Part shown: positions 7,276 through 48,475 of the stretch, in pieces
Layout of the letters: each line of letters starts with the position of its first letter
How positions within the stretch are numbered: position 1 is the stretch's first letter
Assembly: GCA_018401275.1 (NCBI GenBank)
Contig: JAGYKW010000001.1
Coordinates: forward strand, 310,001-374,000
DNA from: Nitriliruptoraceae bacterium
Lineage (GTDB): Bacteria; Actinomycetota; Nitriliruptoria; Nitriliruptorales; Nitriliruptoraceae
Direction: 5' to 3'
Length of the DNA: 64,000 bases
Notes under the pieces: model-generated
The model's input: only the letters and a program-made list of their open reading frames with translations
The model's database searches: none
Told to the model about the DNA's origin: nothing
Translations under genes and position numbers: made by a program

Positions 7276-7818
7276 CTAGTCGAGCGCGGTGCCGCAGTGC
7301 GCGAGCGCCCGGCGGACGAGCCGCGCATGGCCCTCGGACAGCTCCGAGGCGACACCGTTGCCCACGGCCTCCTCGGGGGTCAGCCAGGAGAACTCGAGCG
7401 CGTCCTGCGAGGGACGGCACTCGCCCTCGACGGGGACGACGAAGCAGAGCGCGACGGCATGCTGACGAGGGTCGTGGAAGCCGCTGCGCGCGGGGTCCGG
7501 GAAGTACTCGACGACGGTGAAGGGGGCGGTGCCCGTCGGGAGCTGCGGTTCCGCGTCGGGGCCGAGGTCCTTGGTGAGGTGGCGCCACAGCGCGTCGCGG
7601 ATGGTCTCGTTGTGCAGGATGCGACCGGAGACGATCTCGCGCGACATCGAGCCGTCCGCCTGCGGGCGCAGGAGCAGCCCGATGCGTTCGATGCGGCCGA
7701 GGTGGTCGACACGGACCGGGACGGCCTCGACGTAGACCATGGGGACCTGGCCGCGAGCCGCGTCGAGACCCTCGGGCGCGAGCCAGCCGTGACGGGTCTC
7801 GACGGTCCCAGTGCTCAT
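7276..7818 (-). CDS. DUF4916 Nudix-like protein with degenerate Nudix box
   Basis: A 180-residue protein with the Nudix fold pattern of the actinobacterial DUF4916 group. The box region keeps G65-x5-E71-x7-R79 but then reads H-L-T-K-D-L-G, so the usual REUxEExGU glutamates that bind magnesium are replaced (E to H at 80, EE to KD at 83-84). Hydrolase activity is therefore doubtful; it may bind a nucleotide or act on another substrate. A TACGCT box (7847-7852, minus strand) lies about 30 bases before the ATG. It is convergent with hemW. Confidence 0.75.
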   Translation of the reverse strand: MSTGTVETRHGWLAPEGLDAARGQVPMVYVEAVPVRVDHLGRIERIGLLLRPQADGSMSREIVSGRILHNETIRDALWRHLTKDLGPDAEPQLPTGTAPFTVVEYFPDPARSGFHDPRQHAVALCFVVPVEGECRPSQDALEFSWLTPEEAVGNGVASELSEGHARLVRRALAHCGTALD

Positions 7819-8570
7819 GCGCGTCTCCCGAGGTCGATGGGTCGGGAGCGTAGGTCAGTCGGGAGCCAGGAGCAGGCCTGCGTCCGTCCCCGGACGCACG
7901 AACGCCCCGGGCGCCCTTACGGGCCCACCGGGGCGTCGCGGGTGGATGCGCGCCTCTGGAGTACGCACCCACCGCCCGGGTCGCGATCCCGAGGGATCCC
8001 TCACCAGGTCGGACCTCCGTCGGTCGCGTCCGAGCGCGTCCCGCCGTCGATCCTGACGGTCCCGTCCTCCGCGGGGGAGGAGCGGTGCAGCTCCCGCCCG
8101 TCGCACCACCCGGAGGTGGGCGCCGAGGCGCTCGCTCGGGGCAGCTCGCGCTGCTCCGTCCGCCTGCACGGGCCCGCTGCGTCGGGCCGTGCGATCCTTC
8201 CGGCGGTGACAGCCGCCTCCGGATCGTGATGGTCCGCCTCACGGCGGTCCCATCCGGTGTCGTTTCGGCCCCCGAAGGAGCTTCTTACGGTCATCTCACC
8301 CCGTGGCCACGGGACGGTGACGGCCGCGGTCCCGAAGGACCCTTCACCTCCGCTGTCGGGGACTGTCCCCCCCTCGAGCGACCCGGCAGGGTGTCGCAGT
8401 TCCGTTCCCACCGGGAATGCGACCGTACGCACGATCGGAGGCCGTGTCCAGCGGTCCTACGAAAGACACAGGAAAGACACAGGATGTCCGCAGGAGTTCC
8501 CCAGCATGTGGACGCTGGACGCGCAGTCGATGCGCTCATCGCTCCGGTCGGAGCGGCGTCCGCGTCCGGA
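7819..8570. other. Gene-free, hairpin-rich region
   Basis: No ORF here has convincing coding character. The stretch holds many short perfect stems: 7880-7897, 7903-7935 (eight outer pairs plus an inner GCCC/GGGC stem), 7941-7973 (10 pairs, one mismatch), palindrome 7991-8002, 8106-8119 with a CGGA loop, 8141-8154 with a TCGC loop, 8167-8191, 8202-8217, 8229-8255 (10 pairs with a small internal loop), 8264-8276 and 8316-8348. It lies between two leftward genes, so it would be transcribed as the leader of the Nudix gene or the tail of the winged-helix gene. I could not assign a known RNA family. Confidence 0.45.
7903..7935. terminator. Large hairpin upstream of the Nudix gene
   Basis: CGCCCCGG (7903-7910) pairs with CCGGGGCG (7928-7935), with a second inner stem GCCC/GGGC closing a TTAC loop. 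It lies 85 bases upstream of the Nudix start on the minus strand. It may end leftward transcription arriving from the winged-helix gene or act as an attenuator; no T-run follows. Confidence 0.45.
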
Positions 8571-8792
8571 TCAGCGGACGCGGTAGAGGTGTGCCGGGCG
8601 GCCACGCATCGGCCTGCCCTCGTCGTCGACGTACTGGAGGACCTCAGTGGTCCGTTCGACGAGGCCAGCGTCGAGGTAGCGGGAGAGTCGCCCGCGCGCC
8701 GCCTCGATCGACAGTCCGGTGCGGTCCGACATCTGCCGGACGGTGAACTCCGTGCGACCCAGGTCGCGCAGGAGCGTGCTCCGATTCGCCAT
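8571..8792 (-). CDS. Small winged-helix DNA-binding protein
   Basis: A 73-residue protein that is essentially one winged helix: LLRDLGRTEFTVRQMSDRTG (helices 1-2), LSIEAARGRLSRYLDAGLVE (recognition helix and wing start), then a basic wing RPMRGRPAHLYRVR. It resembles the DNA-binding half of DeoR/FeoC-like or phage-type regulators but has no effector domain. The start is supported by a GGAAGG Shine-Dalgarno sequence. It is bordered by the hairpin-rich gap downstream and by two inverted repeats upstream (8885-8915, 8984-9013), one of which could be its operator. Confidence 0.7.
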   Translation of the reverse strand: MANRSTLLRDLGRTEFTVRQMSDRTGLSIEAARGRLSRYLDAGLVERTTEVLQYVDDEGRPMRGRPAHLYRVR

Positions 8793-46370: not shown

Positions 46371-46444
46371 GGGCCGGTAGCTCAGCTGGTCAGAGCACTC
46401 GACTCATAATCGAGGGTGCGCGGGTTCGAGCCCCGCCCGGCCCA
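46371..46444 (+). tRNA. tRNA with CAT anticodon, probably tRNA-Ile2 (lysidine type)
   Basis: A 74-nt cloverleaf: acceptor GGGCCGG/CCGGCCC with discriminator A, D arm AGCTCAGCTGGTCAGAGC, anticodon arm CTCGACTCATAATCGAG and the T arm CGCGGGTTCGAGCCCCGC. A CAT anticodon can mean elongator Met or Ile2. The C4-G69 and C5-G68 pairs are those used by TilS to select tRNA-Ile2 in E. coli, so Ile2 is favoured over Met. It is not an initiator, which would lack the 1-72 pair. Confidence 0.88.
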
Positions 46445-46478: not shown

Positions 46479-47180
46479 ATGCCCGACACGTACCTCAAGC
46501 GGTCGTTCAACACCGAGTATGCGATGACGGCGCCCCGGCCGCGGCTGCGCGGGCGCTCCCATCAGCTCGCAGGGATCATCAGCCTCCCCGTCGCGATCAC
46601 AGCGACGCTGCGTGCGCCCGCCGGGGAGGTGCGGCTCGCGGTCGCCGCCTTCGCGTTCGGCGTCACCATCATGCTGCTGTGCTCCGGGCTGCTGCACCTG
46701 CGGCGCTGGGACGCGATCGTGCACGAGCGCCTGCTGCGCCTGGATCACTCAGGGATCTACTGCACGATCGGTGGGAGCGCTGCAGCCATCGCGCTGCTCG
46801 CTCTGGACGGCTGGCCGAGGCTCGTCCTGCTGCTGGGGACCGTCCTCGGCTCCCTCATCGGCATCGTGCTCGAATGGCTCCCGTTCGCGGCCCCTCGTGG
46901 CGTCTCGAACACCGTCTACATCAGTCTGGGCTGGCTGCCGGTGCTGCTGCTGCCGTGGGTCTGGGTCGCGGCCGGACCTCTTGTCGTCGTCCTGATCGTG
47001 CTGGGCGGCGTCCTCTACACGTCCGGGGCCATCATCGTCGCGCTGCGACGACCCGACGTGCTGCCCGGCTGGTTCGGCTACCACGAGCTCTTCCACGTCC
47101 TGGTGCTCGCTGCCGTGCTCCTGCACGCGTGGGCGATCGGACGCCTGATCGTCGTGGCGACCGGATCGCCGTTGTGGTGA
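46479..47180 (+). CDS. Hemolysin III family (YqfA/PAQR-like) membrane protein
   Basis: A 233-residue seven-helix protein of the HlyIII/PAQR superfamily. Conserved polar residues typical of the family appear: SHQLAG in helix 1, SGLLHLRRWDAIVHERLLRLDHSGIYCTIGGS in parts around 70-100, and the C-terminal WFGYHELFHVLVL with two histidines that could bind a metal. These proteins may be hydrolase-like membrane enzymes. ATG 46479 has AAGGA upstream. It is 34 bases after the tRNA. Confidence 0.88.
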   Translation: MPDTYLKRSFNTEYAMTAPRPRLRGRSHQLAGIISLPVAITATLRAPAGEVRLAVAAFAFGVTIMLLCSGLLHLRRWDAIVHERLLRLDHSGIYCTIGGSAAAIALLALDGWPRLVLLLGTVLGSLIGIVLEWLPFAAPRGVSNTVYISLGWLPVLLLPWVWVAAGPLVVVLIVLGGVLYTSGAIIVALRRPDVLPGWFGYHELFHVLVLAAVLLHAWAIGRLIVVATGSPLW

Positions 47181-47254
47181 TCGGGCGGCCAGCGGAGCCT
47201 GTCGAACGTGCGATCGCGTGCTCGGCCAGCGACTCGGCCTACAGCTCGGTCCGC

Positions 47255-48475
47255 TCAGACGCAGCGACCGGCGTCACCCGGGACGCGAGGTGACGCGAGG
47301 AGCGTCTCGACCTCGTCGATGGCGAGTGCGTAGGCGACGGTGCTGACGTCGGGGCTGATGGCGAACACGACCGCGACCACGTCGCCAGATGCGTCGATGA
47401 CCGCGGCGCCGGAGTCGCCGGACCTCAGTTCGGACGCGAGGAAGAACAGCGAGCGTTCTGTCGCATCGCGGCCGTAGATGTCGCGACCGACGCCCGTCAC
47501 CCAGCGGTCGATGCGTGCGGACGCCACCCGGTGCTCCGCCTGCCCGCCCGGGTAGCCGACGACCGCGGTCACGTCGCCGACCTCGGCGCGACCGAGCTCC
47601 AGCACGTCGAGCCCGTGCGCTGGAGCGTGCAGCAGCGCGAGGTCACGGTCCTTATCGAACACGACCACCTCGGCGGCCACCCGTCGGCCATCGTGCGTCT
47701 GCAGGTGGAGCTCGCGTGCTCCGGCGACGACGTGCGCGTTCGTGACGATGTGCTCCGTGTCGATGGCGAAGCCGGACCCGGAGTAGCTGCGGCCACAGCC
47801 GACGACGCGGACGCTGGTCGAGGCCGTGATCGCCCGTGCCAGTACCTCCGGTGCGATGCCGATGGTCGTCGGCGGTGTCGAGGGCTCCGGTGTCGGGGCG
47901 AGCGTCGCGAACACGTCCGGGAAGCGTTCGCCACCGAGCAGCGTCCGGAGTGCGCGGCCGACGTCGGGCTGGGGCGGCGTGGCGGCGTCGAGCGTGCCGA
48001 GCACGCTGCTCGCCCGCACCTCACTGCTGACCCGCCCCGGGACGGCGGCGGCGGTGGGGATGAGCAGCCACAGCAGCAGGGTGAACGCGACCACGCTGGC
48101 GACGGCGCCGAGGGCCCGGTCGAGCACGGAGAGTGGGCCGAGCGTGAGCAGTCGTCGGATCGGAGCGGTCACGGCCTGGAGTCCGATGGAGGAGATCGAC
48201 ACCGTGGCGGTGAGGGTCAGGACCGCGAGGAACGTCCGGGCGGGAAGTCCTGCTCCTTCAGCGACCGCGAGCGCTGCGGGCACGGTGCGTCCCGACAGCG
48301 CGAGGCCGGCGATGAGTCCTGCCCAGGCGGCCGCTCGGGCGAGCAGTCCGGTCCGCAGACCGCCGAGCGCGATCAGCGCGGCCACGGCCAGGAGCACGAG
48401 GTCGAGACCGGTCAGGTCGGAGGCGAGCACCTCGGTGACGGAGCGTGAGAGCATCCCGATCGGGTCGGCGGACAT
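47255..48475 (-). CDS. MarP-like membrane serine protease (CvpA plus trypsin-like domain)
   Basis: A 406-residue protein: an N-terminal CvpA-like domain with four transmembrane helices (about 20-145), a linker, and a chymotrypsin-fold protease with His248 (VTNAHVV), Asp278 (DRDLALL) and Ser355 (RSGDSGAAV). The layout matches mycobacterial MarP (Rv3671c), a periplasmic protease for acid and oxidative stress and peptidoglycan-hydrolase processing. The protease domain has a single early cysteine (GCGRSY), so the redox disulfide of MarP may be absent. GGAGGAG precedes the ATG. Confidence 0.9.
   Translation of the reverse strand: MSADPIGMLSRSVTEVLASDLTGLDLVLLAVAALIALGGLRTGLLARAAAWAGLIAGLALSGRTVPAALAVAEGAGLPARTFLAVLTLTATVSISSIGLQAVTAPIRRLLTLGPLSVLDRALGAVASVVAFTLLLWLLIPTAAAVPGRVSSEVRASSVLGTLDAATPPQPDVGRALRTLLGGERFPDVFATLAPTPEPSTPPTTIGIAPEVLARAITASTSVRVVGCGRSYSGSGFAIDTEHIVTNAHVVAGARELHLQTHDGRRVAAEVVVFDKDRDLALLHAPAHGLDVLELGRAEVGDVTAVVGYPGGQAEHRVASARIDRWVTGVGRDIYGRDATERSLFFLASELRSGDSGAAVIDASGDVVAVVFAISPDVSTVAYALAIDEVETLLASPRVPGDAGRCV

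Follow-up and report, generated by a model that had tools for sequence, protein, structure and literature searches.

A predicted large folded RNA of the Nitriliruptoraceae with two covarying loop-loop contacts and a DnaA-box-like upstream array

Ornate large RNAs build their tertiary and quaternary structure with covarying kissing loops (PMC12286853). Based on sequence comparison, we propose that a previously undescribed RNA gene of the Nitriliruptoraceae (class Nitriliruptoria, Actinomycetota in the NCBI placement) finds its nearest kind among them, in OLE, ROOL and GOLLD, a likeness that would lie in the way of working and not in homology. Like these, the RNA is predicted to be long, stand-alone and highly structured, its kissing loops covarying as do many of its stems, and OLE too occurs in extremophiles (PMC12286853). 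Unlike them, it is found only in Nitriliruptoraceae, consists of a core of ~260 nt and a 3′ part of variable length between genera, and has its own DnaA-box-like array; it has no Rfam match to any of the three and no phage copies were found. 6S RNA and the actinobacterial Ms1 are likewise independently transcribed structured RNAs (PMC9130861), but differ in length, hairpin-chain shape and loop-loop contacts. The upstream DnaA-box-like repeats in 11-bp phase resemble those of oriC, datA and DARS, whereas the array described here precedes the promoter of a structured RNA that is conserved, and lies away from the dnaA–dnaN origin.

The locus was identified in a 64-kb piece (hereafter the window) of a 1.73-Mb high-G+C genome (39 contigs; 72% G+C), between a Nudix gene (7276–7818, minus strand) and a winged-helix-like frame of 73 aa (8571–8792, minus strand) with a sub-threshold Pfam match only. 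This small protein is kept within the genus, with a nucleotide identity of 62–79% and mostly third-position excess. The Nudix gene, taken for degenerate in an earlier note on this DNA, matches DUF4916 over nearly its full length (E 3.7e-72). The same note had described the gap as unmatched in the window for its density of hairpins, and here it was right: when perfect hairpins with 5 or more Watson–Crick pairs and a loop of 3–8 are counted without overlap, positions 7899–8417 hold 14 per 520 nt, the top of the window, compared to a mean of 5.5 ± 2.3, and the count reaches 16 in segments overlapping the RNA region and 12 elsewhere (near 47.1 kb). The second-highest density, 11–12 perfect hairpins per 520 nt at 47001–47640, lies 3′ of a tRNA (46371–46444). 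In correction of the extent originally given, 7819–8570, the predicted functional unit is narrower, comprising 7899–8417 plus the promoter and array up to 8503, with the following features:

8460–8503, minus strand: four 11-bp-phased direct repeats, TGGGGAACTCC TGCGGACATCC TGTGTCTTTCC TGTGTCTTTCG, in register 5′ of most homologues
8445–8450, minus strand: predicted −35 element TGGACA; CTGGACA or CTAGACA in 12 of 13 aligned homologues (G015 differs)
8422–8427, minus strand: predicted −10 element TACGGT, 17 nt from the −35 element; CGTANNNT in 13 of 13 aligned homologues and most others
7899–8417, minus strand: predicted structured non-coding RNA gene, ~519 nt, its ends placed by the promoter and the terminator-like hairpin
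8382–8415, minus strand: hairpin P1 at the RNA 5′ end, a 9-bp stem with a conserved apical loop; forms in 21 of 21 RNAs
8395–8399, minus strand: kissing contact 1, 5′ side, CUGCG in the P1 loop, predicted to pair with CGCAG in the PB loop
8351–8380, minus strand: hairpin P2; outer stem CGCU/AGCG, CGCC/GGCG or CGGU/GCCG within the genus
8363–8367, minus strand: kissing contact 2, 5′ side, GACAG in the P2 loop, predicted to pair with CUGUC in the PA loop
8328–8341, minus strand: hairpin GGUCC(UUCG)GGACC; loop GAGA or GCGA in relatives
8268–8281, minus strand: hairpin GCUCC(UUCG)GGGGC, covarying in the genus (GCUCC/GGAGC, GCCCC/GGGGU)
8234–8247, minus strand: GNRA hairpin CCGCC(GUGA)GGCGG; loop GAGA or GCGA in relatives, duplicated in G003
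8193–8225, minus strand: hairpin PA, common to 21 of 21 RNAs and covered by the arm-exchange test
8208–8212, minus strand: kissing contact 2, 3′ side, CUGUC in the PA loop, predicted to pair with GACAG in the P2 loop
8166–8192, minus strand: hairpin PB, core CCCG(ACGCAG)CGGG, common to 21 of 21 RNAs
8177–8181, minus strand: kissing contact 1, 3′ side, CGCAG in the PB loop, predicted to pair with CUGCG in the P1 loop
8141–8154, minus strand: GNRA hairpin GCAGC(GCGA)GCUGC; four pairs changed on both sides within the genus
8106–8119, minus strand: UNCG hairpin CCACC(UCCG)GGUGG, from the tetraloop and hairpin counts
7902–7936, minus strand: GC-rich terminator-like hairpin ACGCCCCGG...CCGGGGCGU at the RNA 3′ end, without a long U run

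The RNA occurs in each of the four genomes of the genus at the same, syntenic place, where it is 72–84% identical compared to 23–69% in the gaps on either side. Its differences are spread over the codon phases (34/42/34), unlike the third-position excess of the neighbouring Nudix gene (11/11/68), and indels of 1, 2, 4 and 23 nt break any frame. Together, the lack of codon phase, the frame-breaking indels and the conservation indicate a conserved, non-coding region. Folded as a single sequence, 7819–8570 is more stable than its dinucleotide shuffles, though modestly so (z −2.6 on the minus and −2.4 on the plus strand); since this is unremarkable on either strand, comparison with relatives has to decide. 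The RNAalifold consensus of the four sequences reaches −477 kcal/mol on the minus strand, as opposed to −382 ± 8 for column shuffles (z −11.8), and 27 pairs have both sides changed among only these four sequences. It is scarcely credible that the locus represents chance palindromes, a coding gene or a mobile-element relic: high G+C content makes hairpins and long open frames common, and the single-sequence z is only −2.6, but family-wide conservation with covariation, the missing codon periodicity, the lack of any phage, viral-contig or plasmid match for the RNA region and the one clear copy per genome refute such an origin. The earlier note had offered a long structured non-coding RNA on a leftward transcript as one of its readings, and this is supported by the shuffled controls, by covariation in several stems and by conservation in relatives.

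The minus strand is also indicated as the RNA strand by its loops. In 21 RNAs, a GNRA or C(UNCG)G cap closes a stem of 4 bp or longer 122 times on the RNA strand and 10 times on the reverse strand, with 11.6 expected. Loops swap between UUCG and GNRA within the genus (for example GGUCC-UUCG-GGACC and GGAUCC-GAGA-GGAUC), and G–U pairs are present that would read A–C on the opposite strand, on which the consensus fold of the four sequences is weaker (z −6.7 against column-shuffled controls).

Homologues were recovered from 22 of 35 Nitriliruptoraceae genomes in 11 of 14 genera, each genome having one clear copy. A second genus, g11, was matched in five of five genomes by a covariance model (R1) built on the middle segment of the RNA, and its refinement (R2, middle segment with structure) added G015 and suggested G011. 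A pattern built from the shared upstream repeats returned the same loci plus two more MAGs from the GTDB collection. A sequence-only profile of the array, promoter and 5′ end (R3) matches 21 of the 35 family genomes at E < 1e-10; neither the other families of the class nor a phylum-wide sample of 396 genomes gave a comparable match. In seven loci outside its training set, R2 scores directly 3′ of the R3 promoter on the same strand, so that two independent models agree. The compact member in G004 was recognised by a marginal R2 score and by inspection (promoter, ACUGCGG loop, CGCAG loop, terminator-like hairpin); at this locus (L118), the 11-bp-phased array 5′ of the promoter is seemingly inverted (CCCACAGG units). 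Thirteen of the 35 genomes, including the nearly complete G043 and G005, gave no match. Several candidates were discarded: those inspected among the short BLAST matches L005–L030 (query 268–345) were chance matches in other sequence, and confirmation came later for no others than the terminator matches of G024, G013 and G015; covariance-model matches in G042 (acyl-CoA synthetase gene) and G044 are coding; and weak matches in G064, G030, G005, G046, G047 (C246) and G012 (C150) were rejected on inspection. No member matches Rfam: models of OLE, ROOL and GOLLD gave no hit at the gathering threshold in the window and 14 other loci, nor in the RNA region even at E up to 10; weak 6C and sX13 matches in G010 were below threshold and on the strand opposite to the RNA.

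Complete RNAs measure 283–668 nt (the copy in G006 is cut by a contig end). Hairpins P1, P2, PA and PB are common to 21 RNAs, with loops near nt 18, 51, 204 and 234 in 16 of them (exceptions G021/G009, G010 and G008/G020), and pairing is better between the arms of one RNA than after swapping arms across genera (means of 21–23 compared to 15–19). A comparable GC-rich hairpin closes every complete homologue, and a simple scan found no classical terminator at the RNA 3′ end. The GNRA hairpin in G003 (L004, 1269–1856) is tandemly duplicated via a 23-nt insertion containing GGACCGCCGCGAGGCGGACC.

A higher-order fold is indicated by two predicted loop-loop contacts. Across the RNAs, CUGCG(G/A) in the P1 loop complements (C)CGCAG in the PB loop, and CUGCG/CGCAG is replaced by the compensatory CUACG/CGUAG in G015, G041 and G021/G009; by genus, the change is present in g13, in g7 and in one of two g9 genomes. 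The P2 and PA loops, GACAG/CUGUC in the window, read GUGCAG/CUGCAC, GUACAG/CUGUAC or GAUGCAG/CUGCAUC in other genera, although their pairing is weak in G021/G009 (a 4-bp run) and bulged in G008/G020. Of six possible loop pairings, only P1 × PB and P2 × PA clearly pair better within than between genomes, and in each case 0 of 5000 permutations did as well; since the loop windows were picked by eye before testing, the genomes are related and permutation does not correct for ancestry, these counts are strong but are not calibrated probabilities. A third contact seen by eye, GCUCGG × CCGAGC, was dropped as it fails in G048 and G049. Covariation thus argues strongly that P1 × PB and P2 × PA hold the RNA together. 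Their nested order (P1...P2...PA...PB) fits one compact molecule, while contacts between two molecules would be compatible with the same pairings.

Most members have a predicted promoter in common, TGGACA followed by an N17/18 spacer and TANNNT, which lies too far from the E. coli consensus to be detected by an E. coli-type promoter scan. Beyond the 13 aligned homologues, CTGGAC is found in most others (G021, G009 and G007 differ). Four to five direct repeats in 11-bp phase precede most RNAs, and their distal units (TGGGGACA, GGTGGACA) differ from a DnaA box by one or two changes, whereas the promoter-proximal units of the window genus (TGTGTCTT) are far from such a box. DnaA-box-like 9-mers occur at 20.3 per kb upstream of the RNAs compared to 1.3 per kb in their surroundings (15-fold), so that by sequence resemblance the region has the upstream box cluster of a DnaA-regulated promoter; the 271-bp dnaA–dnaN gap of the source genome holds four such 9-mers. 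Furthermore, R3, which contains the array, weakly matches oriC, i.e. the dnaA–dnaN gap, of G012 (L112, 2738–2791) and G047 (L115, about 1501–1636); these matches were set aside as homologues, but support the likeness of the RNA array to origin DnaA boxes. A 25-bp DnaA-box-like array matching the RNA array was also seen in Nostocoides sp. F2B08 (L063, around 3030). The published MtrA repeat is KTRACC-N5-GTKACN (PMC5650626), and the promoter-proximal GTGACT-N5-GTGACT resembles it; MtrA was considered as the sole regulator, but the GTGAC pair fits strictly in two members only.

The box density, similar to that of the genome's own oriC, and the weak profile matches at oriC could also mean that the DNA matters and the RNA is secondary, the locus serving to titrate or reactivate DnaA in the manner of datA or DARS, or else being an origin-like element from which a primer is transcribed. 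We give this little probability: strand-specific tetraloops, G–U pairs and compensatory loop pairs lie well 3′ of the array and indicate that selection acts on the RNA, the structure spans 280–670 nt, a separate oriC lies between dnaA and dnaN, and GC skew does not switch at the RNA locus.

Gene neighbours bear on whether the RNA acts in cis or in trans. In the window genus it lies between the Nudix and winged-helix-like genes, in g11 beside an AAA ATPase gene in divergent and a TauE-type exporter gene in convergent orientation, and in other genera, as far as neighbours were named, next to other, unrelated genes. The RNA shares its strand with the Nudix (DUF4916) gene and, in the window genus, ends ~80 nt before its start codon, as would be expected of a cis-acting leader or attenuator. 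However, the downstream gene is not constant between genera, being convergent in g11, and a terminator-like hairpin closes the RNA, which largely refutes a leader and makes it very improbable. The differing neighbours, the RNA's own promoter and its 3′ hairpin instead argue that it probably acts in trans. Two further suggestions of the earlier note, an unusual leader and the remains of a mobile element, find no support, the latter in view of the single clear copy per genome and the synteny within the genus.

The main rival to our interpretation, which we regard as rather unlikely, is that the RNA is the lineage's 6S/Ms1-type molecule, present in abundance and tuning transcription by binding to RNA polymerase. 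It would account for the single copy with its own conserved promoter, and for the lack of any match to the 6S RNA covariance model (RF00013) in nine family genomes (E 0.001) or in the RNA region, given that Ms1 fills the place of 6S in other Actinobacteria and can escape sequence detection between genera (PMC9130861). However, 6S RNA and Ms1 were searched for in that work as RNAs of ~180 and ~300 nt (PMC9130861), with a range of 220–300 nt for Ms1, compared to 283–668 nt here, the predicted RNA is a hairpin chain with two loop-loop contacts, and the HAD hydrolase and oxidoreductase that neighbour Ms1 were not seen among the neighbours named above. RNase P RNA and tmRNA were found elsewhere in the genome, so the locus would not be its only copy of either.

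We therefore consider it likely that 7899–8417 encodes a stand-alone, trans-acting large folded RNA with an array-controlled, kissing-locked 5′ scaffold domain. A chromosomal replication regulator would bind the 11-bp-phased array and set transcription; DnaA is the likeliest candidate, the alternative being that MtrA or another regulator of the OmpR type occupies the promoter-proximal GTGAC units. Locked by both kissing contacts, the 5′ domain would form a stable and compact body, which, by analogy with ornate large RNAs, may serve as a scaffold that probably works together with proteins or in oligomeric form, and the 3′ part, whose length varies by genus, may be a less essential extension. 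The contacts rest on covariation, whereas we infer the DnaA link as well as the scaffold role, the latter from the kind of RNA that this is, since no partner gene was seen to travel with it. A replication-linked variant, in which DnaA on the oriC-like array controls an ornate RNA whose kissing loops, pairing inside a single molecule or from one copy to another, assemble it into a compact or multimeric particle, is possible but rather improbable.

Ornate large RNAs are few and the function of most is open. The present one is single-copy and family-wide in a family that includes a cultivated species, and its predicted tertiary contacts are testable by compensatory mutants. The origin-like array at its promoter offers a concrete first handle on when and why the RNA may be made. 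The finding adds an unannotated, predicted RNA gene to the genomes of the Nitriliruptoraceae and, if the replication-linked reading were true, would couple an RNA-based machine, known from this family only, to the state of the replication initiator.
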